DNA of 24,467 nucleotides from a virus, in IMG/VR virus record IMGVR_UViG_3300031565_004291, positions 1 through 24,467 of that record; one strand, written 5' to 3'. Shown here one piece after another: positions 2,206 through 17,099 of the stretch. The position numbers were made by a program, and so were the translations under genes. Each line of letters opens with the position of its first letter. Position 1 is the stretch's first letter. The notes under the pieces are model-generated. The model had not been told where the DNA came from and searched no databases. It saw nothing but the letters and a program-made list of their open reading frames with translations.

Positions 2206-2451
2206 ATGGCCCCGCTCAAGCCCCGGCGCATCGCGCCGACCTTTCGCCCCATCTCCGGGCGCTCTGTCCGCGCCGACTGGTGTACTTCGCCGGAGACCGC
2301 CGCCAAAGTGCAGGCGATGCTCCCCGCACACGTCACCGTCTCCGCCCTGCTCGACCTCGCCGTGGGCCGCCTCATGGCCGCCCACGCCACCAACCCCGAC
2401 GCCGCGAACGAGGCCCTCGAAGCGGCCGAAGCTGCCCGGCGGGCGCGATGA
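2206..2451 (+). CDS. Small helical protein upstream of the sliding clamp
   Basis: This encodes an 81-residue protein. The ATG at 2206 is chosen over an earlier in-frame ATG (2038) because AAGGAG sits about 7 bases before it and the earlier start would run through the previous gene. The N-terminal 25 residues are basic and rich in Pro and Arg. From about residue 30 the protein looks like a set of amphipathic helices (SPETAAKVQAMLPAH, then VSALLDLAVGRLMAAH). This layout is loosely like a small ribbon-helix-helix or anti-sigma-like fold, but I cannot assign it. Its stop overlaps the dnaN start in an ATGA junction, so the two proteins are probably made together. Confidence 0.6.
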   Translation: MAPLKPRRIAPTFRPISGRSVRADWCTSPETAAKVQAMLPAHVTVSALLDLAVGRLMAAHATNPDAANEALEAAEAARRAR

Positions 2452-3581
2452 ACCTCACGATCCCCAAGCCCCTCCTGCTCTCCATGCTCGACTCCACCGC
2501 CCGCTCTGTCGGGCAGATTGGCGGCTCTGGCATGGTCCTGCTGTCGGCCGACGCTGACTCCCTCGCCGTGACCACGGCAGACGGCACAACCGAAGCGCAG
2601 GCCACCTCGGGCCGCGCCACCATCACCCGCGACGGCCGGGCCATGGTAGACCATCGCCTGCTGAGCCAGGCCGTCAAGAGCCTGCCCGATGGCCCCGTCT
2701 CGCTCGTCATGGACGGGCGCGGCAAGGGCCTGGTGGTCGATGCGGCAGGCGGCGCGCGCTTCAAACTGCTGAGCGCCGACCCCGACAACTTCCCGCCGTC
2801 CATGCAGGCCCGGATTGCGGCGGGCAGCGTGGCCAGTTCGTTCATCGGCGCCGACTTCGCCCTGACCGTCGCGCGCACCATCTACGCCGTCAGCCGCGAC
2901 GATAACCGGTATGGGCTCAACGGCGTCCACATGGAGGCCACCACCGACGACGACGCGGGCGACATGGCGCGGCTGGTTGCGACCGACGGCAGCCGCCTCG
3001 CGTGGGCAGAGATGGAGGTGGCAACCGGCGCCGTCCAGGTCCAGCCCCGCCGCCTCGCCCCTGTCGCGTTCCTTGGGGCCGTGGCTGCCGTCTGCCGGGA
3101 CGCTGCTACCGTTGCCCTCTCGCTGGGTGAGCACGGCCTGAGCGCGACTGTGGAGGGCGACGGGATGACCGTCACGCTCTGCTCTCGCTGGGTCGAAGGC
3201 GAGTTCCCCGCCTACCGGAGCATCACCGAGGCGATCAAGACCACCAGCACCGTCACCGTCCGCCGCTCCGACCTCGTGTCCAGCCTGCGCCGGGTGGGCA
3301 TCATGGCGACCGGGCAGCATCGCCTGGTGACCGTGACCACCGACGCGACCGAACTGCGCCTGAGCGCCGCGGGCGATGGGGGCGACGCCGCCGAAGTGGT
3401 GGCCGCCACCGTCGAAGGCGCGGCCGGCTGGCGATCCGGCGTCAACGCCGCCTATCTCGCCGACGCGCTGGGCCAGCAGGCGAGCGAGCTGGTGACGCTG
3501 GACCTCGGCGCCGCCCTCGACCCCATCTGCATCCCCTCGCCGCACGGGCTGGCCCTCGTCATGCCGATGCGGATCGACTGA
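2448..3581 (+). CDS. dnaN: DNA polymerase III sliding clamp (beta subunit)
   Basis: This encodes a 377-residue protein, close to the roughly 366 residues of bacterial DnaN. The clamp forms a ring around DNA and tethers polymerase and other replication proteins. Family landmarks are visible in order: YAVSRDDNRYGLNGVHME at 146-163 (start of domain 2), LVATDGSRLA at 176-185, GEFPAYRSI at 251-259 (domain 3 boundary), SGVNAAYLADAL at 330-341, and the C-terminal VMPMR at 371-375, which lines the pocket where client proteins dock. The pocket residues look intact, so the protein should still bind clamp-binding partners. ATG 2448 overlaps the previous stop. No polymerase or clamp loader lies in the window, so partners must come from the host or from the rest of the genome. 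Confidence 0.95.
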   Translation: MNLTIPKPLLLSMLDSTARSVGQIGGSGMVLLSADADSLAVTTADGTTEAQATSGRATITRDGRAMVDHRLLSQAVKSLPDGPVSLVMDGRGKGLVVDAAGGARFKLLSADPDNFPPSMQARIAAGSVASSFIGADFALTVARTIYAVSRDDNRYGLNGVHMEATTDDDAGDMARLVATDGSRLAWAEMEVATGAVQVQPRRLAPVAFLGAVAAVCRDAATVALSLGEHGLSATVEGDGMTVTLCSRWVEGEFPAYRSITEAIKTTSTVTVRRSDLVSSLRRVGIMATGQHRLVTVTTDATELRLSAAGDGGDAAEVVAATVEGAAGWRSGVNAAYLADALGQQASELVTLDLGAALDPICIPSPHGLALVMPMRID

Positions 3582-6314: not shown

Positions 6315-6773
6315 CTACGGCCGCCACGGGGAATAGCCCCCGCCGGCCGGCGCGTGCAAGGTCTGCCGGCGGTTGGGCCGGGCCGTCGTGTAACTGACGT
6401 GGACGTGTCCGCCGCGGGCTGTGTCGTACCAGATCACCTGGTCGAAGTCGGCCGCGAAGTCGCAGATGGCGCGGGCCAGGTCCACAGCGGGGACGCCGGA
6501 CACCTTGATATCCACGGCCTCGCCCACCATGTGCTGCGAGGTCTTCGAGCCACCGATCAGCCGGTTCGTTTCGGGGGTCCGGTAGCCGCCCGTGATGCGG
6601 ACGGGCTTTCCGATGCGCTCGCGGAGGGGGTCGAGGACGGCAGCGCACAGCTGGCGCACCGCGGGCATGTGCTCGTCGGGCACCCGCAGGACGATCCTCG
6701 CCTTCGCCGCCGCGCGACCACCCTCGAACTCCGACCACGAGAAGTAGCGGCCGGGGGGCGTGGCGCGGCTCAT
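6315..6773 (-). CDS. Endolysin, M15-family peptidase (D-Ala-D-Ala carboxypeptidase-like)
   Basis: This encodes a 152-residue single-domain enzyme. M15 peptidases are zinc enzymes that cut peptide bonds in peptidoglycan. The family motifs are present: GGYRTPETNRLIGGSKTSQH at 62-81, with zinc ligands H81 and D88 in SQHMVGEAVDI, then DQVIWYD at 111-117 and the HVHVS motif with H123 and H125 near the C-terminus. No signal peptide is present, so it should need a holin to reach the wall. ATG 6773 overlaps the previous stop (ATGA) and has no good ribosome site of its own, implying coupled translation. It is most likely the lysis enzyme, though a virion-associated wall-cutting role cannot be excluded. 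Confidence 0.88.
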   Translation of the reverse strand: MSRATPPGRYFSWSEFEGGRAAAKARIVLRVPDEHMPAVRQLCAAVLDPLRERIGKPVRITGGYRTPETNRLIGGSKTSQHMVGEAVDIKVSGVPAVDLARAICDFAADFDQVIWYDTARGGHVHVSYTTARPNRRQTLHAPAGGGYSPWRP

Positions 6774-8601: not shown

Positions 8602-10290
8602 TCATAGCACGCCGCGTCGATCTCTGATGGCATCGTCATCCAGCAGCACCTCGAACACCCACCGGTCCTGTTGCCAGGCGCGGGCGTTGATCGTGCATAT
8701 CTGCGAGGCCATGCCGATGCTGGCATCCGTCAGGGTCACGATGTTGCCGACCTGGAGCCAGCCCCAATACCACGGCGCTTCATATGTGCGGGTCGCGAGG
8801 GCCAGCGAGTAGGCACGCGCCCGCCACAGGCCCACCGCGCCAGCCGAGGCCGCCTCCCACACCGCCTTCAGCTCCAGCTCATGCGGCGCGCTGGTGGGGC
8901 TCGTGTCGGGTGACCCATCGCCGACCCGCACCGTAGTCCCGGCGGGCACAGGGTAGCCCGATATGTCCCGACCCCGCCGGATGGCCGCGGCCCGGCTGTA
9001 CCAACTGCCCCGCTGCGAATCGACCGCGACAGCCCCAAGCGGGCCGTTACGCTGGCCGTCGTAGGCGTACCGGACGACCGTGGCGGCGTCCAGATCCTCG
9101 GGCTCAGTCTGGACGGTGACGCCCGACACCGCCACCCAATCGCCCGCGCCCCCATAGTCGGGCGAGTCGGACGCCTGGACATGCGCCCTCGCCGCGCTGC
9201 CCCTCACCGCCGAGTCATAGACCACCGGGTAGAGCCCGTCGGGGCCGCGCCGCACCGTCACCGGCAGAAGGGGTAGGACGTTGGCCTGCGCCCACTCCCA
9301 CGGGGTCGAGTCGTCGTTGATGTAGATGGCGATCTGCACCGCCGGGACGCGCGCCTTGATCGCCTCGAAGGCGGGCACGTCTACCGGCTGGCCCGTCAGC
9401 GACAACGCCCACACCAGCACGTCTATGGCGTCGCCGCTCTGTGGCTCTGAGAGTAGCCACGACACCCAGAACTCCCCATCCGTGTGGGTAAACGGCGGAT
9501 GAGCTGCGGTCACGTCTACGATCGCAATCTGGCGCCCTTGCCCGTCGGTCGTTGTGACGGGGCTGACCGCATAGGTGTCGCCGTTCTCGTCCAGCACGGT
9601 CACCGCGGCCGTTGGTACGGGGTGGCCTGCGATGATTAGGATCTCGGCCTTGCCTGTCGCAGCGTTCCGTTGGATGCAGTAGGCCGGCGACCCCGATGCG
9701 GCCACGGCCGCCCCGCCAGCCGAGTAGGCACCGGGTGAGCCGATGATCCGGGGGTATCGCTTTCCGGCCGCCTCGCGGCTGGCGTTGGGCCAGGTCGCCG
9801 ACGTGATCCGGGCATCGGCGGGGACGATGGGCGCAGAGGTAGTCCACGGGGCGGCCGATAGGGTGAACTCGACAGCCCCCGGCGGCGCGTCGGGGATGGC
9901 ATAGGTCGGCCTGCGGATTGAGCCCGTCAGCAGCGGCCAGCGGTCGGCCGCCAGTACCATCGGGGTCGATAGCCGCGCCTCGCCTGCGGGACAGGGCACC
10001 ATCCACAGGGTAGCCGTCGCCCGCGTCAGATCGTGCCCGGCGCGTCGATAGGCCGCCACGTCGATCGGGAGGATGCAGCGGACGGTGGCAGTCGGGGCCG
10101 CGGCGTCGATGCTCAGCCGCCCCAAAGTCTCGGCCACATCGACGGGCGATAGGCCGCCAGCGTAGGACAGCGACCGCCCCGTGCTGTCCACCACGTCGAT
10201 CGGCTCGGAGGCCACCCGGTAGACCTGCCCCGCATAGTGCAGGTCGAGAAGGATCACCGGGTAGGAATCGATGAAGTCGGCGGGGGTCAC
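8602..10290 (-). CDS. Tail hub or tip-type structural protein
   Basis: This encodes a 562-residue protein starting at GTG 10290, overlapping the previous stop (GTGA). The N-terminal 150 residues are beta-rich (YPVILLDLHYAGQVYRVASE, with SLSYAGGLSPVDVAETLGRL further on). A central part carries Asn/Gly-rich turns and EWAQANVLPLLPVTVRRGPDG. The C-terminus is again beta-rich, with LQVGNIVTLTDASIGM resembling the end of phage hub or baseplate proteins, where this motif describes a cleft-forming barrel. It is the second large gene after the tape measure, which is the normal place for tail-tip components. No peptidase motif is visible. The exact family is not recognised. Confidence 0.6.
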   Translation of the reverse strand: MTPADFIDSYPVILLDLHYAGQVYRVASEPIDVVDSTGRSLSYAGGLSPVDVAETLGRLSIDAAAPTATVRCILPIDVAAYRRAGHDLTRATATLWMVPCPAGEARLSTPMVLAADRWPLLTGSIRRPTYAIPDAPPGAVEFTLSAAPWTTSAPIVPADARITSATWPNASREAAGKRYPRIIGSPGAYSAGGAAVAASGSPAYCIQRNAATGKAEILIIAGHPVPTAAVTVLDENGDTYAVSPVTTTDGQGRQIAIVDVTAAHPPFTHTDGEFWVSWLLSEPQSGDAIDVLVWALSLTGQPVDVPAFEAIKARVPAVQIAIYINDDSTPWEWAQANVLPLLPVTVRRGPDGLYPVVYDSAVRGSAARAHVQASDSPDYGGAGDWVAVSGVTVQTEPEDLDAATVVRYAYDGQRNGPLGAVAVDSQRGSWYSRAAAIRRGRDISGYPVPAGTTVRVGDGSPDTSPTSAPHELELKAVWEAASAGAVGLWRARAYSLALATRTYEAPWYWGWLQVGNIVTLTDASIGMASQICTINARAWQQDRWVFEVLLDDDAIRDRRGVL

Positions 10291-13200
10291 AGCTCGGGCT
10301 CCAGGCTCAGGCTTGCTACCGTCAGTTGCTCGTCGGTGCCCTCATCCCCGAGCGGGTGAGTCACAACCAGCCCGCGGTCAGCGTGGCACAGCAGGTGCTC
10401 GTGCCACCGGCTCAGGGTCCGCAGGTCGCCCGATGCGGCCCGCTCAATCCGGGGCAGGTACACCAGCGGCGAGGTGCCCGCGGCTGACAGCTCGCCTTGC
10501 AGGTCGTAGACGGTGGCCGTCCAGGTGGCCGCGCCCTCTATGCCAGCGGTGGCCGTGGTCGTGATGTACTGCGGCTCTCCGCCCGCGTGAAACTCGGTGC
10601 TGTCCACAGGGGCGGGCCACGCCACCTCCACCTGCATCCCCGTCGGGCGGGGTTGGCTGGCCGCGGTGCTGCCGTCCTGCTGGGTGGAGTAGGCCGCGCC
10701 GAGGATCTGAGTCGTGCGCCGGCCCCAATCGGGCGGCAGGCCAGCGACCCACACCCGGCCAAGCATCATGGTCCCGATCTCGAAGTACCCCTCTACCGTG
10801 TCCTGCGCGCTGATGACCAGCCGCCAGCCGGCCAGCGTGGTCGCGGCGGGGATCTCGAACACCAGGGTCACCGACCGCGGGCAAAGCACCACCGTCCCGG
10901 ATGCGGCCTCTGTGCCCGTCACGCCAGCCAGGTCAACCCGTGCCCTCGGGCCTGCCGTGGCGCCTGTGCTCCATCGGCCGCCCCGGTTGCCCTTGACGCG
11001 CCGGATATCGCCCGCCACGATCCGAGCATCCCACCCGACCAACTCCTGCCCCGCAATCTGATGGTCCAGCGCCGCGTTGGGCAGCAGGGTAGCCCCCTCC
11101 CGCGTGAAGGCCACCGCGCCCCATGGGCTCGTATCAATGGCGGCCACCTGGACCCATGCGGCCCCGGTGTAGTACTCCAACGAGCCCTGCCGCCAGTTGA
11201 TGCCGCTCAGGTGGAGCGCATAGAGCGGCGCGCCCGCGTGGCTCTCGTCGGTGCCCAGCAGCGTCTCGTCAAGGGCGACCGCGATCTGTTGCTGCGTCTC
11301 ATCGGTGGACCGCCAGCGCGTGCGAGGCGAGCGGCTATAGGTCGGCCAGATGCGCTCGATCGGGTACTCGTAGGCAGTCTTCACCGTCCACGAATCGCCC
11401 TTATGGGCCGGGCCGTCCACAGCGAGGACTTCGAGCCCATCGGCATAGTAGACAGGCGACGACGACAGCGGGCGCCCGCTCAGTTGCTCGGGGTTGTCGG
11501 TGGTCGCCCACTCGTGCCACTGGTAGGCAGATCCGGCGATGCAGCTGGAGCGGGTGATATCGTCGATAGCGAAGTGTGGGCCGTGGTACACGTCGAGGTC
11601 TGCCACGCTGGTTCCCGTGCCCCAGATGCCGTACTTGATGCGGTTGGCTCCGACCGTGCCGCCATCGTCGGTAAGCGCGTAGGCCCCCACGAAGGTCCAC
11701 CGCCGGTCCTCGTCGCCCACCGCGGAGCCGGTCTTGTTCCATTCCCGATACCACACGCGGCAGCTTCGGACGCTGTTGGCCTCGTTGGCGTAGACGCCGA
11801 TCCGAAACTCCCGCGCGTTGTTACTCAGGCTTTGGATTAGGCCGAGTTGGGTGCCGGTTACCACGTCGTAGACGCCGAACTCGGTTGAGCCCATGTAGAT
11901 CCCCACCTCCACCCCGCGCGTTCCGTTGTCGATCCGCGCCGACAGCGCAGCACGCTGGGCCGTGCCCGTCGCACCCGCCCCGCTCGCATAGGCGGCAAAG
12001 GTGAGCACGGCGAGATCGTCGCCCACCGCCGTATAGTCGCGATAGACGTAGCCGCCAGCCGCGCCGCCGGGCGCGCTGAACCGCTCAGCCCCGACGCTCT
12101 GGAGCGCGTTGGCGAACGCGCCCGAACTCACGAGGGTCCAGGACGACGTATCCTGCGCCCGCTCAATCGGAAGGCGCGTCAGCTCCCAGGGGTGCCGGTC
12201 CACCAGCGAAGTGCCGCCGCGGATCGGGGCGATGGTCAGGTCGTGGTAGCCCCCGATGTAGGCCACCCCGAGCGAGGTCTGGGTGGTTGTGGCCGTCGCG
12301 GCATACCACTGGTGGACCATGACCGCGCGCCCTCGCTGCCAGCACACAGCGAGGCTTGTCGGGTAATGGGTGACGTCCGCTGATGGGTTGTGCCCGGCGC
12401 TCCACACCTGCGCGGTGTCCACCAGGGAAGCCGGATCGAAGCTATTGAGCCCGACCCTGCCGAAATTCTTGCCGTCGTCGTCGCTGTAGACGACTCGGAT
12501 CTGCTGCGGGTTGCCCGCAGCTGTGGAGGCCACACGCGCATAGAGCCACACGATCCCCGCATCGTCCACGGCGGCGGCGATGTCTGCGTCCTTGATGTGC
12601 CCGTTTGCGTCTACGTTGGCCCACGCCTCATCCCAACCCGCCCCGCCGCTGGTCCCCCATTGGGCTGCCGTGAAGTCACTGTAGGCCGACCCCAGGCGTG
12701 CCCAGAAGATGTCGCTGCTGGCCTGGACCCACGCGAGCACGAAGACCCCGCCGCTCACAACGAGATCGTGAGGGCCGCCGGTCAACTCGTCCACCACCGC
12801 GTCCACCGGCTGCGAGATCACGAAGTCCAGGCCGAGGCCGAGATTCGTGCTGGCGTATTGGTGGAGGCGATCTACGGCGATGCCCGCGCCAGTGGCGCCG
12901 CTCTCGGTGACGTAGACAACCAGCACCTGCCCCGCGTTGTAGGCCGCCCGGATGCGCCCCACCCCATCGTTGCCCGACGTGGCCGGGGTGCCCTCTACAT
13001 AGGTGGCAGCGCCCGCGGTGTAGCGCCTGGCGACCGACCACGTAGCCCCGCCGTCCTCGCTGACCTGGACGCGAATCCACCGTCCGTCCGATGCCTCACC
13101 GACGCCGGGCACCCAGTGGAGGCAATAGAGCCGGTCCCCAACCTCCACCAGACACGGGTGAGACGCGGCGCCATCGGTCGCGCCGCTGTGGATGACCACC

Positions 13201-13688
13201 GCAGACGACCACGATCCATCGGCGGGGTCGCGGCGCCAGCAGTAGATGGAGTTGTTGTCGGTGCGCTCGGCCACGACAACGAGCCTGTCGCGGTACTTGT
13301 CGGCCTTCAGACTGGCGATGTGTGGCGTGGCGTAGTCGGTGGTCGTCGGCGCCCACTGAAGCACTTCCCACGCGCTGAACGTGGCGGGAATCTCCCAGCC
13401 CCGGAAGGCGTTGGTGCCGTCGCCCGTGCGCCTCCACACCATCTGCGCCGCGTCAATGGTGCGGCCCACTGGCCCACCGTCCACCGCCAGCAGGTCGATA
13501 GACGAGTCGGCCACCTGTAGCCCTTGAGCCTCCAGGACGGCCTCAGATTCGCTCTCAGGGACGGGCACGCCTGCGCGTGGCCCCGCCTGGCTGTAGCTGC
13601 TCTGCGCCGCCCAGAGCGCCGTGGTGGCCGTCAGCCGGGCGTCGGGGATTAGCAGGCCCTGGTATTGGTCGCGGTTCTTCACACCCAT
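10287..13688 (-). CDS. Large tail protein with Asp-box (sialidase-like) repeats
   Basis: This encodes an 1133-residue protein, the longest in the window. ATG 13688 (TGATG overlap) is preferred to the adjoining GTG 13691 because GGAGG lies at better spacing. Residues 120-480 contain repeated strands and two good Asp-box motifs, SEDGGATW (210-217) and SDDDGKNF (402-409), the turn signature of sialidase-type beta-propellers. Residues 515-710 look like a concanavalin/LamG-type sandwich. The C-terminal 400 residues are beta-rich and unrecognised. Lying directly after the tape measure, it is likely part of the tail tip or central fibre. The catalytic residues of neuraminidases are not obvious, so binding of sugars or simple structure is more likely than cleavage. 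Confidence 0.65.
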   Translation of the reverse strand: MGVKNRDQYQGLLIPDARLTATTALWAAQSSYSQAGPRAGVPVPESESEAVLEAQGLQVADSSIDLLAVDGGPVGRTIDAAQMVWRRTGDGTNAFRGWEIPATFSAWEVLQWAPTTTDYATPHIASLKADKYRDRLVVVAERTDNNSIYCWRRDPADGSWSSAVVIHSGATDGAASHPCLVEVGDRLYCLHWVPGVGEASDGRWIRVQVSEDGGATWSVARRYTAGAATYVEGTPATSGNDGVGRIRAAYNAGQVLVVYVTESGATGAGIAVDRLHQYASTNLGLGLDFVISQPVDAVVDELTGGPHDLVVSGGVFVLAWVQASSDIFWARLGSAYSDFTAAQWGTSGGAGWDEAWANVDANGHIKDADIAAAVDDAGIVWLYARVASTAAGNPQQIRVVYSDDDGKNFGRVGLNSFDPASLVDTAQVWSAGHNPSADVTHYPTSLAVCWQRGRAVMVHQWYAATATTTQTSLGVAYIGGYHDLTIAPIRGGTSLVDRHPWELTRLPIERAQDTSSWTLVSSGAFANALQSVGAERFSAPGGAAGGYVYRDYTAVGDDLAVLTFAAYASGAGATGTAQRAALSARIDNGTRGVEVGIYMGSTEFGVYDVVTGTQLGLIQSLSNNAREFRIGVYANEANSVRSCRVWYREWNKTGSAVGDEDRRWTFVGAYALTDDGGTVGANRIKYGIWGTGTSVADLDVYHGPHFAIDDITRSSCIAGSAYQWHEWATTDNPEQLSGRPLSSSPVYYADGLEVLAVDGPAHKGDSWTVKTAYEYPIERIWPTYSRSPRTRWRSTDETQQQIAVALDETLLGTDESHAGAPLYALHLSGINWRQGSLEYYTGAAWVQVAAIDTSPWGAVAFTREGATLLPNAALDHQIAGQELVGWDARIVAGDIRRVKGNRGGRWSTGATAGPRARVDLAGVTGTEAASGTVVLCPRSVTLVFEIPAATTLAGWRLVISAQDTVEGYFEIGTMMLGRVWVAGLPPDWGRRTTQILGAAYSTQQDGSTAASQPRPTGMQVEVAWPAPVDSTEFHAGGEPQYITTTATAGIEGAATWTATVYDLQGELSAAGTSPLVYLPRIERAASGDLRTLSRWHEHLLCHADRGLVVTHPLGDEGTDEQLTVASLSLEPEL

Positions 13689-15529
13689 CACCAGCCTCCT
13701 GCGCCCATCGAGCGCGCTCTGCTCATAGCCGCGAAGTCGGCACCGGGCCTGCGTAGCGCATCGCGCCGGGCAAGCTCATAGGTGCGGCCCTGGTAGGACG
13801 GGACCGCCACCACCTGCACTTGGGGCGCGTTGCTGTCGCCCTGCGCTACGTCGATCTGGCGCCGCATGTCGCCCAGGTCTTTGCCGGCCACCACCATGTC
13901 ACCGGGCGCGAAGTTGGCCGACCCGCCGCCCTGCCTCATCTGGACGACGCCGGGGGTGTCGTTGAACTTGGGGGCCTGGCTCTTGATCTTCATTACCTGT
14001 GCGAAGACCGATGCACTCACGCCCGCTGCCGCGACGGCCCCAAACACCGGGCCGAGGTCTGCCCACGCCTTTGAGATGGCCACCGCGCCGTTGATGATCG
14101 TCGTTGCCACCGCTGCGTTTTGGGACACCTGAAACGCCTGCTTGGCCGCCTTCTTGTTTGCCTTCGCTTGATTCTCGATTGATGCGGCCATTGACAGGTC
14201 AGAGATCCCTTGCGTGAAGGCGCTGATGGCCTGAATGTCCTCGTAAACGGCCGCCTGGCGCGCTGCCGACTCCGCTTTGATCCGCTTCTGCTCTGCTTCT
14301 GATGCATCGCGCTTGATCTTGTCGAGGTCTTCGGCCTGCTTGACCCGCAGGGCTTGTAGCGACGCCTCACGCTCAATCAGCGCCGCGTCAATGCCCGCCG
14401 CGACCTCTGCGTTGTAGCCAAGCCTCTGCCCGATCTCGTCAAGCAACTTGACGCGCTGATCGAACTCCGCATTGATCGCGGCCTCTGCCTCTGTCCCGTT
14501 CCGGCTGGCGTTGATCTCGCCCATCATCTCGGCCAGTTGCTCGCGGGCCGTCTGCTCTGCCTTGACGCCCGCGAGGAGTTGGCCGCGGGTGACGGTCTCA
14601 CGCTGGACGGCTGCCGCCGCCTTGCCTGAGCTTTTGGCGTTGGCGTCGGTGGCTGCCGTGGTGGCCAGCACCGCGTCCTTGACGCTCTTCTGCGCCGCCG
14701 CCTGCTTTTGCAAAAGGCCATCCATGACCCGCAGCTGGCCCTCGGCGTCCTCGATCGAATCGGAGAACCCGAATACCTTGTCAGCCGCCCATGCTGCGGC
14801 CTTTCCAAGCGGGCCGAATGTCGCAGAGTCGATCGCCTGCTTCCACTTTACAGCGCTCTCGATCGTGGCCTGCTGCTCTTCGCGTTGGGCGCGCTGGGCT
14901 TTGGCGTAGTCCAGCACGGCATCGCGGGCCGCGCGCTGGGTTGTGATCTGCGCCGCCTGCTCTTTCGTCGTCGCGCCGGTCGCGACGGCCAGGGCCAGCT
15001 CGGCAGACTCGAGCTGCCGCAGCGATGGCTCCAACGAATCGGAGCCATCGCGCAACAGGCGGGCCATGCCCGCGGCCTGCTCCATCTCCCGCGCCATCGT
15101 CTGATAGGCGATGAAGGCGGCCCCGGCTGCCACGCCTGCGATACCCAGCGTGCCCACCATCGCCGCCAGGCTGCCGCCCATCAACTGCGATGCGTTGGCG
15201 GCGCCCTTGAGCCCGTTCGCTACCGCGCCGATGCGCGACACCATTCCGCCCAGCTCGGGGCTCACCGTGCTGAGCGCGGCGCCCATAGAGGCGAATGATT
15301 CGTTGGTCTTGCCCGCCGCATCACCGAGCGACTTGAGCCCGTTTGCGCTGCCCTGCGCGGCTTTCTTCGCCTCGGCCTCAGCCTTGGCCACCAACTTGAC
15401 GGCCTTGCTCACCTCAGCGACGGCCTTCTTGGCCTCCCTGCCCGTCGCGCCGGGGATCTCGGCGAGCTTCTTTTTGAGGTCTGCGATCTCTGCGGTGTAC
15501 GTGAGAGAGACGGTATCGGCGCGTCCCAT
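13688..15529 (-). CDS. Tail tape measure protein
   Basis: This encodes a 613-residue protein. It is mainly helical and rich in Ala, Lys and Glu, with a long N-terminal coiled coil (10-75), a hydrophobic segment at about 117-142 (GGSLAAMVGTLGIAGVAAGAAF), further coiled coil at 200-430 and a second hydrophobic part (IINGAVAISKAWADLGPVFG). The C-terminus is Gly/Gln-rich. These features and the position after the chaperone genes identify a tape measure, which sets tail length and is ejected with DNA. From the known relation of about 0.15 nm per residue, a tail of roughly 90 nm is expected. ATG 15529 overlaps the preceding stop. Confidence 0.88.
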   Translation of the reverse strand: MGRADTVSLTYTAEIADLKKKLAEIPGATGREAKKAVAEVSKAVKLVAKAEAEAKKAAQGSANGLKSLGDAAGKTNESFASMGAALSTVSPELGGMVSRIGAVANGLKGAANASQLMGGSLAAMVGTLGIAGVAAGAAFIAYQTMAREMEQAAGMARLLRDGSDSLEPSLRQLESAELALAVATGATTKEQAAQITTQRAARDAVLDYAKAQRAQREEQQATIESAVKWKQAIDSATFGPLGKAAAWAADKVFGFSDSIEDAEGQLRVMDGLLQKQAAAQKSVKDAVLATTAATDANAKSSGKAAAAVQRETVTRGQLLAGVKAEQTAREQLAEMMGEINASRNGTEAEAAINAEFDQRVKLLDEIGQRLGYNAEVAAGIDAALIEREASLQALRVKQAEDLDKIKRDASEAEQKRIKAESAARQAAVYEDIQAISAFTQGISDLSMAASIENQAKANKKAAKQAFQVSQNAAVATTIINGAVAISKAWADLGPVFGAVAAAGVSASVFAQVMKIKSQAPKFNDTPGVVQMRQGGGSANFAPGDMVVAGKDLGDMRRQIDVAQGDSNAPQVQVVAVPSYQGRTYELARRDALRRPGADFAAMSRARSMGAGGW

Positions 15530-16083
15530 CAGCCACTCCTTGCGAGGCGGGCGAGGTCAGCCTGGAGGCCAGCGATTAGCGCCGGGGTTGCGTCCCTCGC
15601 GGGCTTGCGGACGTAGAGCGCCCACGGATTCTTATTGGCGAGGCTGGCGTCAGGCGCCATCGGCGGAGGATTCGGCCCGTTGATCCGCTCTTTCGCCCGG
15701 TCGAAGGCTGCGGACTTGGCCTCTTGGCTGCCCCTCTTGCGGGCAAAGGATCGGGTCCGAGCGTCGGCGATTAGCTGCTCTTTGGTGCGCTTGGCGTACC
15801 GGATGAACCAGGCGTACTGGCGCCCACGCGCGAAGGCGGGGTTGAGCAGTTGGACCGATACGCTCGTCTCTGCCACCCGCGACGCGATATGGAACGCGCC
15901 CCGGCTGCGCCCCGTCGCCACCGGCCAGCGGCCGACCGCGCCCTGTTCAATCGGCTGTAGGGTGTCCGTCGCCAGCTTGACGAATCGACCAGCCGCGCCC
16001 TCGCTGACGGCATCAATCGCCCGCAGCGCGGCCGTCATGTCTACGTCAATGCGAGCGACGCCGGCTTTGAATGTCTCAGCCAT
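15529..16083 (-). CDS. HK97 gp10-like putative head-tail or tail completion protein
   Basis: This encodes a 184-residue protein starting at ATG 16083 with GGAG 5 bases upstream. An N-terminal helix is followed by WPVATGRSRGAFHIASR (53-69), similar to the P-V-x-T-G-x-L/R-R motif of the HK97 gp10 family, then strands and a YAWFIRYAK segment. It ends in an ALYVRKPARDATPALIAGLQ helix, again as in gp10 proteins. Those proteins usually complete the head-tail joint and are encoded before the tail tube gene. Here the gene lies between the chaperone and the tape measure, which is unusual. The assignment is moderate; a minor tail protein is the alternative. Confidence 0.5.
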   Translation of the reverse strand: MAETFKAGVARIDVDMTAALRAIDAVSEGAAGRFVKLATDTLQPIEQGAVGRWPVATGRSRGAFHIASRVAETSVSVQLLNPAFARGRQYAWFIRYAKRTKEQLIADARTRSFARKRGSQEAKSAAFDRAKERINGPNPPPMAPDASLANKNPWALYVRKPARDATPALIAGLQADLARLARSG

Positions 16084-16200
16084 TGGCGCTCCGTAGTCGG
16101 TAGTCAGCGAGGAGTAGGGCCTGGTCGTCTCTGCTCAGTGTATCCCACCATGCCGGGGACTGGCCGTGCTCCCGGCAGAGGTGGAGCACCACGCGAATCA
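16076..16200 (-). CDS. Tail chaperone frameshift extension (GpT-like)
   Basis: Directly past the chaperone stop, the -1 frame stays open for 40 codons from ATT (16198-16196) to the TGA at 16078-16076. The product reads like the second part of a tail assembly chaperone: REHGQSPAWWDTLSRDDQAL then LLADYRLR, with aromatic residues before an acidic turn and an ALLLA-Y-RL helix. No ATG is available; GTG 16192 could serve but lacks a ribosome site. The likelier route is -1 frameshifting on the GGGGGGC just before the stop, giving a fusion of 170 residues with Leu at the joint. The extension ends inside the start of the next gene. Confidence 0.65.
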
Positions 16201-16207
16201 GCCCCCC
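16151..16207 (-). promoter_or_regulatory. Programmed -1 ribosomal frameshift signal: slippery heptamer plus pseudoknot
   Basis: Read on the minus strand, G GGG GGC (16207-16201) fits X XXY YYZ in the chaperone frame and is followed at once by TGA. After 11 bases, GTGCTCC (16189-16183) pairs with GGAGCAC (16172-16166). The loop sequence TGCCG (16177-16173) can pair with CGGCA (16155-16151). This gives an H-type pseudoknot with stems of 7 and 5 bp and connecting loops of 5, 0 and 10 bases. The spacer is somewhat longer than the usual 5-9 bases. The fold is drawn by hand from complementarity. Confidence 0.6.
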
Positions 16208-16587
16208 TGAGCCTCGGGGGCGTCGGAGAAATCCTCAGCCGCCTTGACCTCTGCCTCAGACACCGCCGACATGGCCGCCCATTCGCGCGCCCGGTTGAGG
16301 ATGGCGGCGAGGTCCACCAACTTCATCCCGCTCTCTTTGTAGAGCGCGTCGAAGGCTTCCGCTCCCCAGTCTGCGGTATTCGTCCGCACCGTCCACGGGC
16401 GCGGGCGCCGCTTGGCGGGCCAGGCCACCGACTCAGGCCACGCCATCCGCAGCGCCGCCGCACCGAGGGCGAAGGCCAGCGATATCGGCCCGTCCTCGGT
16501 GAGCGTGAGCGCCGCGAGCATAGGCACCGGCTGTAGGGTCGCTGTGATGGGGCCGACCGTGACGGTCGGTGCCTCGTGCTCGGGCAT
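16198..16587 (-). CDS. Tail assembly chaperone (GpG-like)
   Basis: This encodes a 129-residue protein starting at ATG 16587 behind a strong GAGGAGG site. The N-terminal half has strands (PTVTVGPITATLQPVPMLAA). The C-terminal half is helical (ADWGAEAFDALYKESGMKLV, then AAILNRAREW) and ends in an acidic tail, EAQGG. Tail assembly chaperones lie between the tail tube and tape measure genes and coat the tape measure during tail assembly. They are usually made in a short and a frameshifted long form. Both position and frameshift signal fit here. There is little sequence similarity to judge by, so the call rests mainly on context. Confidence 0.72.
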   Translation of the reverse strand: MPEHEAPTVTVGPITATLQPVPMLAALTLTEDGPISLAFALGAAALRMAWPESVAWPAKRRPRPWTVRTNTADWGAEAFDALYKESGMKLVDLAAILNRAREWAAMSAVSEAEVKAAEDFSDAPEAQGG

Positions 16588-16619: not shown

Positions 16620-17099
16620 TCAGCGGGCGGCGATGACGACCACAGCGTCAAGCGACAACGGACCATAGACGGTGAACTCAAACGAGATCGTGGACACCTC
16701 GCCCTCGGTGATCTCCATGCTGGTCAGCACCATGTCTTCGCCGCTGTAGGACCGGGTCTCGGCGCCATAGTCAAAGCTGAAATCGAAGTCCACGCCGAAG
16801 AGATCGCCGATGTCCAGCGTGGTCGAGATCGCCGTGGCGGTCTTGCCGAGGGCGAGCGACTGAAAAGCCGCGGCCGGGCCGGCAAGGGTGGCCGAGACGC
16901 TGATGGTGGGGAAGGCGCGGGCGCCCTTGCGCAACCCGACGACTGCGCCGCGGGACTCGGTGACCACCTGGGCGCGGCCATAGGCCACAAGCCCGCTCAG
17001 CGACTGGTCGCCGTTGGACATGAGAAGCGTGGCGCTCAGGCTGTTGTCGTCGGTGATCGTGAAGACGCCATCGGTGAAGTTGGCCGGAATGTTGCTCAT
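16620..17099 (-). CDS. Major tail protein (tail tube)
   Basis: This encodes a 159-residue protein. ATG 17099 (MSNIPANFTDG) overlaps the previous stop in ATGA; a longer in-frame form would run into the neighbouring gene. It is beta-rich throughout, with SLSATLLMSNGDQSLSGL at 20-37, PTISVSATLAGPAAA and EGEVSTISFEFTVYGPL, and has a short central helix. The pattern and length suit siphovirus tail tube proteins, which stack as hexamers around the tape measure. The position between the terminator-like gene and the chaperone agrees. No C-terminal Ig-like extension is present. Confidence 0.72.
   Translation of the reverse strand: MSNIPANFTDGVFTITDDNSLSATLLMSNGDQSLSGLVAYGRAQVVTESRGAVVGLRKGARAFPTISVSATLAGPAAAFQSLALGKTATAISTTLDIGDLFGVDFDFSFDYGAETRSYSGEDMVLTSMEITEGEVSTISFEFTVYGPLSLDAVVVIAAR

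Follow-up and report, generated by a model that had tools for sequence, protein, structure and literature searches.

Where on this message do ribosomes change frame? The stretch of viral DNA analyzed here (the window, 24,467 nt) carries on its minus strand a chaperone open reading frame (ORF) at 16587–16198, encoding a gpG-like short form of 129 amino acids (aa), with a syntenic homologous ORF in relatives. The ORF starts with ATG and terminates with the codons CAG GGG GGC TGA. The heptamer G_GGG_GGC at 16207–16201 is correctly phased for slippage by −1. Downstream of this G-run, the −1 frame reads LIRVVLHLCREHGQSPAWWDTLSRDDQALLLADYRLRSANG over 41 codons to a TGA at 16078–16076, overlapping the ATG of the next gene at 16083. 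A sequence-only reading had reported the ORF end, the heptamer phase, and the open −1 frame, together with a stem (GTGCTCC/GGAGCAC) located 11 nt after the G-run heptamer and a possible TGCCG/CGGCA pairing, and we confirmed all of these in the sequence. It had proposed that ribosomes slip on the G-run directly at the stop codon, stimulated by an H-type pseudoknot built from these two pairings.

The −1 frame opens further upstream, at the codon GGA (16234–16232), 27 nt above the G-run and directly after a −1-frame TGA (16237–16235) that touches the sequence GGATTTC and sets the upstream limit of the shift. Because the frame is open up to that TGA, a slip is possible anywhere from 16234 to the stop codon. 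The window contains four copies of GGGGGGC, and three lie on the opposite strand; the heptamer is therefore weak evidence when taken alone.

The −1 extension in relatives and its gene neighborhood

Single-protein scans of viral and genome contigs with the chaperone recovered no relatives, and neither did tblastn against cultured phages; the window belongs to a phage lineage without a cultured relative among the cultured phages searched. Because direct chaperone searches found none, we recruited relatives indirectly, by searching with portal, capsid, connector, and tail proteins and with a profile of the extension. After removal of duplicate contigs, 29 distinct loci, including the window, spanned the junction. 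The homologous loci keep the same gene order, and in all of them (29 out of 29) the extension is in the −1 frame with respect to the chaperone ORF and bears the signature CRE(Y/H)GQ.P.WW or a close variant. Since the extension has homologs, the apparent frameshift is more than chance.

An assembly or sequencing error, or a −1 ORF open by chance, might also have produced such an overlap: the G-run is an error-prone homopolymer, and the window is a virus contig from a metagenome. However, 29 distinct loci, drawn from many contigs and mostly without the G-run, showed the same frame relation, and we regard this explanation as scarcely credible.

Upstream of the chaperone gene, the minus-strand gene at 16620–17099 probably encodes the major tail (tube) protein, judging from its position and its 51–71% identity in relatives; this protein gave no family hit. 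The extension is followed on the same strand by a gene for a 184-aa protein (16083–15529), whose relative in L030 (8210–8728) is weakly HK97-gp10-like (E = 0.031, below the cut-off), and then by the tape measure gene (15529–13688). The tape measure genes of L014, L015, and L030, which are syntenic with the latter, matched PF06791 (TMP_2) above the cut-off, and the window copy matched only phrog_1506 (E = 0.0065). In the relatives looked at, too, the extension and the tape measure gene are separated by a gene of about 180 aa, which is an uncommon order.

Family, PDB, and viral-fold searches gave no significant match for the chaperone. Its L030 counterpart weakly matched the tail assembly chaperone phrog_3860 (E = 0.0077), and several chaperones were among the non-significant fold hits of the structure model, which was confident (mean pLDDT 91.6). 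The gene lies in the tail module, one 184-aa gene short of the tape measure gene, and a short form with a −1 extension is typical of G/GT-type chaperones (PMC5009743). Because of this gene order and architecture, we assign it as very likely a tail-assembly-chaperone gene with a conserved −1 extension. The earlier identification of a gene of the tail-chaperone type ahead of the tape measure gene was thus borne out by the extension in 29 loci and the PF06791 matches in three of them.

Position of the shift

At one homologous position, an in-phase heptamer competent for slippage was present in 29 out of 29 loci, being canonical in 16 and semi-canonical in 13. In the window this heptamer is G_GAT_TTC (16234–16228), 27 nt ahead of the G-run and stop codon; it is not a perfect X_XXY_YYZ, as is likewise the case for the 13 semi-canonical loci among the 29. 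GGATTTC and GGGTTTC were found in 11 loci each and GGGAAAC in two, with AAATTTC, AAGTTTC, GGATTTA, GGGTTTT, and TTTTTTG in one locus each; L030 has GGGTTTC, and TTTTTTG is the heptamer of L055. Turnover among such unlike slippery heptamers at a fixed place would otherwise be hard to explain. By contrast, a canonical heptamer adjacent to the stop codon was present in only 3 out of 29 loci (the window, L027, and L043). Its absence from the other 26 loci counts against the G-run as the slip site, and the −1 extension retained throughout the set leaves the frameshift itself standing.

Conservation of the −1 peptide already begins ahead of the G-run; the peptide reads GFLRRPRGSGGLIR in the window, GFLRRPRGGGGLVR in L005, GFLARPRGLGGLVR in L008, and GFLRRPRGAGGLIR in L013. 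Its pattern, GFLRRPRG.GGL..., starts above the G-run, as in the aligned peptides FLRRPRGSGGL, FLARPRGLGGL, and FLRRPRGAGGL. The 0-frame peptides diverge over this segment (SDAPEAQGG, SDAPEAAGA, SQDREDSAD, and SEGQEEQAD in the window, L005, L008, and L013, respectively; FSDAPEAQGG, FSQDREDSAD, and FSEGQEEQAD are 0-frame counterparts that include the Phe). Among 13 loci, the mean pair score of the segment was 20.9 in the −1 frame versus 10.9 in the 0 frame. When only the 0-frame residues were re-coded, the −1 score was 4.3 ± 1.4, with 0 out of 1,000 values as high as 20.9, and the 0 frame beat its own null too (z = 6.0 for the reverse null), both frames being somewhat constrained; these re-coding nulls take no account of shared ancestry.

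We also counted pairwise differences at 0-frame codon positions 1/2/3 among five loci (the window, L005, L008, L012, and L013). Over the 81 nt ahead of the heptamer these numbered 69/80/135; the 27 nt from the heptamer to the stop codon gave 14/45/29, and the following 60 nt, within the extension, gave 22/92/36. The disputed 27 nt share the codon pattern of the extension, and the switch occurs at GGATTTC, not at the G-run. In L006, L042, and L055, the 0 frame runs on past the conserved CRE motif and stops 78–84 nt after the heptamer. Slippage next to the stop codon therefore cannot yield the conserved extension in these three loci.

Slippage on G_GGG_GGC has in its favor that the heptamer is in phase, that the −1 frame is open beyond it, and that the arrangement of GGG GGC and a stop codon recurs in L027 and L043. 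In those two loci, however, the G-run is also the G-rich 3′ arm of a hairpin whose other arm is C-rich, and the −1 coding constraint reaches 27 nt above the G-run. The heptamer is further disfavored because GGZ is rarely found in the A site at viral shift sites (PMC7618472). Even with the downstream pseudoknot as a stimulator, a slip at the G-run is very unlikely to account for the locus. Comparison of the loci indicates that the slip site first proposed is very probably wrong and that the −1 slip most likely takes place at GGATTTC, 27 bases before the G-run. The description of the locus as an unusual version of the tail-gene frameshift, with an all-G heptamer against the stop codon, is unsupported; the slip would use an ordinary slippery sequence.

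Such a site has precedents, as G_GAU_UUU is a known shift site (pea enation mosaic virus) and G_GA is a recognized variant of X_XX (PMC5009743). A literature search made largely without subscription papers gave nothing relevant on phage frameshifting at GGGGGGC, GGATTTC, or GGGTTTC; given that coverage, this blank is not evidence of absence.

The extension might instead be made as a separate small protein, through termination–reinitiation or from its own start codon. Consistent with this, GTG codons follow soon after the stop codon in the window, with a G-rich, Shine–Dalgarno (SD)-like run ahead of them, and TAATG or TGATG is present at the 0-frame stop codon in L014, the L018 group, L028, L029, and L043. 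However, 14 of the 29 loci have no ATG, GTG, or TTG in the first 22 −1-frame codons from the heptamer, or before or within the conserved CRE part, and the conserved −1 peptide starts at the heptamer, ahead of any start codon. Independent synthesis is, in our estimation, a highly improbable explanation of the extension. Reinitiation, chance, and assembly error were all rejected as explanations on the evidence of the homologs. Where TAATG or TGATG is present, ribosomes could to some extent reinitiate there and make the extension by itself.

Candidate stimulatory elements

In the window, a 6-nt spacer (TCCGAC, 16227–16222) separates GGATTTC from a possible stimulatory hairpin, GCCCCC-loop-GGGGGC (16221–16201), in which GCCCCC (16221–16216) forms the 5′ arm and the G-run (16206–16201) the 3′ arm. 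The usual spacers measure 5–9 nt (PMC7618472). Similar hairpins are possible in most relatives (AGCCCCC/GGGGGCT in L027, L030, and L043; AAGACCGCG/CGCGGTCTT in L008), and the 33-nt fold minimum, averaged over loci, falls 0–6 nt after the heptamer. Dinucleotide-shuffle z-scores were near zero in most GC-rich loci, the window hairpin was not stronger than its dinucleotide or synonymous-codon controls, and the synonymous-codon null was beaten at the 5% level only by the hairpins of L030, L032, L008, and L012. Given these near-zero z-scores and the few loci that beat the codon null, we rate the hairpin as a possible stimulator, a role that can reasonably be proposed for it.

A second candidate, on the 5′ side, is the SD-like sequence GAGGT at 16251–16247, 12 nt before the slip heptamer. 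Averaged over 23 loci, it is the strongest anti-SD position within 240 nt, and SD-like elements stimulate −1 shifts from 9–14 nt upstream (PMC5009743). The signal was gone when set against a coding null; conserved Glu-Val codons account for the SD-like match.

In the −1 frame, GGGGGGC (16207–16201) supplies two Gly codons and the first base of the Leu codon CTG, and relatives encode Gly-Gly-Leu as GGC GGA CTA, GGC GGA CTG, or GGG GGC TTA. On this comparison, GGGGGGC is best read as Gly-Gly(-Leu) coding sequence and as the 3′ arm of the possible GCCCCC/GGGGGC hairpin. We also weighed an arrangement of tandem sites, with GGATTTC as the main site and GGGGGGC catching some ribosomes at the stop codon, into the same −1 frame, in the window, L027, and L043, where both heptamers are in phase. 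The G-run would then double as slip site and hairpin arm, ribosomes that had not shifted would get a second chance, and two alternative junctions would arise, some of the fusion product containing SDAPEAQGGLIR. Selection for the second heptamer is not apparent, however, as Gly-Gly-Leu coding and hairpin pairing suffice, and relatives use GGC GGA CTA/CTG instead. We consider the use of both sites unlikely.

The pseudoknot that had been proposed as the stimulator lies 38 nt past GGATTTC. Its stems do exist, and in relatives 83% of cells are paired, a level not distinguishable from coding conservation. One pair in stem 1 and none in stem 2 has changed on both sides, a pattern that, together with the pairing, would favor a slip at the G-run. 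However, both helices break in some relatives, with three broken pairs in stem 1 and four in stem 2, each in one to three of 6 sequences, and conservation of the downstream pseudoknot is not convincing on this alignment.

Proposed mechanism and comparison with known systems

We consider it highly probable that this tail assembly chaperone gene undergoes programmed −1 ribosomal frameshifting of the lambda G/GT type, with the slip at G_GAT_TTC and the G-run acting as coding sequence and hairpin arm. We infer the slippage itself, its efficiency, and its stimulators as follows. The majority of ribosomes would produce the 129-aa short form, and a minority would slip one base back on G_GAT_TTC, adding 50 codons that run from CTC (16228–16226) to the −1-frame TGA. 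This T-like extension (16228–16076) has a homologous −1 peptide in all relatives covering the region. Re-pairing from UUC to UUU by a single Phe-tRNA is favorable under codon–anticodon rules, and in the window the Phe-tRNA would make this move while the Asp-tRNA shifts from GAU to GGA, or else the P-site tRNA may slip alone. The GCCCCC/GGGGGC hairpin would stimulate the slip across its 6-nt spacer, perhaps along with GAGGT upstream. The predicted fusion of 170 aa (120 aa from the 0 frame and 50 aa from the −1 frame) would end in ...AAEDF-LRRPRGSGGLIRVVLHLCREHGQSPAWWDTLSRDDQALLLADYRLRSANG. By analogy with lambda, the gene would have a chaperone function, in which the tape measure protein is bound by the short form and the tail tube protein is bound or recruited by the extension.

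The fusion has the same length as that expected from a slip at the G-run, with LRRPRGSGG replacing SDAPEAQGG. The predicted shift site is thereby moved to a testable place: the diagnostic tryptic peptide would be GSGGLIR for a slip at GGATTTC versus AAEDFSDAPEAQGGLIR for a slip at the G-run, and looking for the QGGLIR joint alone would give a false negative.

The frameshift would be an ordinary member of the known G/GT class, and the phage lineage that carries it is uncultured. As in the lambda G/GT system (Levin 1993; Xu, Hendrix and Duda 2004; summarized in PMC5009743), the chaperone gene lies between the tail tube and tape measure genes, short and −1 extended forms are predicted, and a slip site of the X_XXY_YYZ type is located near the end of the first ORF. 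Unlike in lambda, whose site is G_GGA_AAG (PMC7618472), the site here is G_GAT_TTC, the 184-aa gene separates the extension from the tape measure gene, and we detected no sequence similarity to known chaperones. The umbravirus and dianthovirus site G_GAU_UUU (PMC5009743) has its P-site half, G_GAU, in common with the site here and also places a Phe codon in the A site, a likeness of the site only, as it serves eukaryotic RNA-virus polymerase genes and ends in U, not C. The Escherichia coli dnaX −1 cassette (PMC5009743) likewise combines an SD-like element 9–14 nt upstream, a heptamer, and a downstream hairpin. It differs in its heptamer, A_AAA_AAG, and in that the shift leads to a shorter product, and the SD-like and hairpin elements of the phage are only candidates. 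In another tail-gene case, a +1 shift reportedly occurs at the stop codon of a tube gene; recoding near a stop codon is common to both, whereas the shift here would be −1 and upstream of the stop.

A homopolymer beside a stop codon can mislead the prediction of a frameshift site from a single genome. The set of 29 loci, with heptamers changing at a fixed position, should be useful for testing the range of slippery sequences, G_GAU_UUC among them, on which bacterial ribosomes will slip.

L042, L043, and L044 come from contigs assigned by binning to Gammaproteobacteria, proteobacterium, and uncultured bacterium metagenome-assembled genomes (MAGs); these assignments, which may be wrong, give the only hint of a host. 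Elsewhere in the window, a gene at 2448–3581 on the plus strand, opposite to the structural genes, encodes a DNA polymerase III beta subunit (sliding clamp) with all three Pfam domains above the cut-off. On the minus strand, a 1134-aa tail-module protein (10287–13691) had a sub-threshold BNR repeat match, and a Peptidase M15 gene at 6315–6773 (PF08291, E = 7e-19) probably encodes the endolysin.
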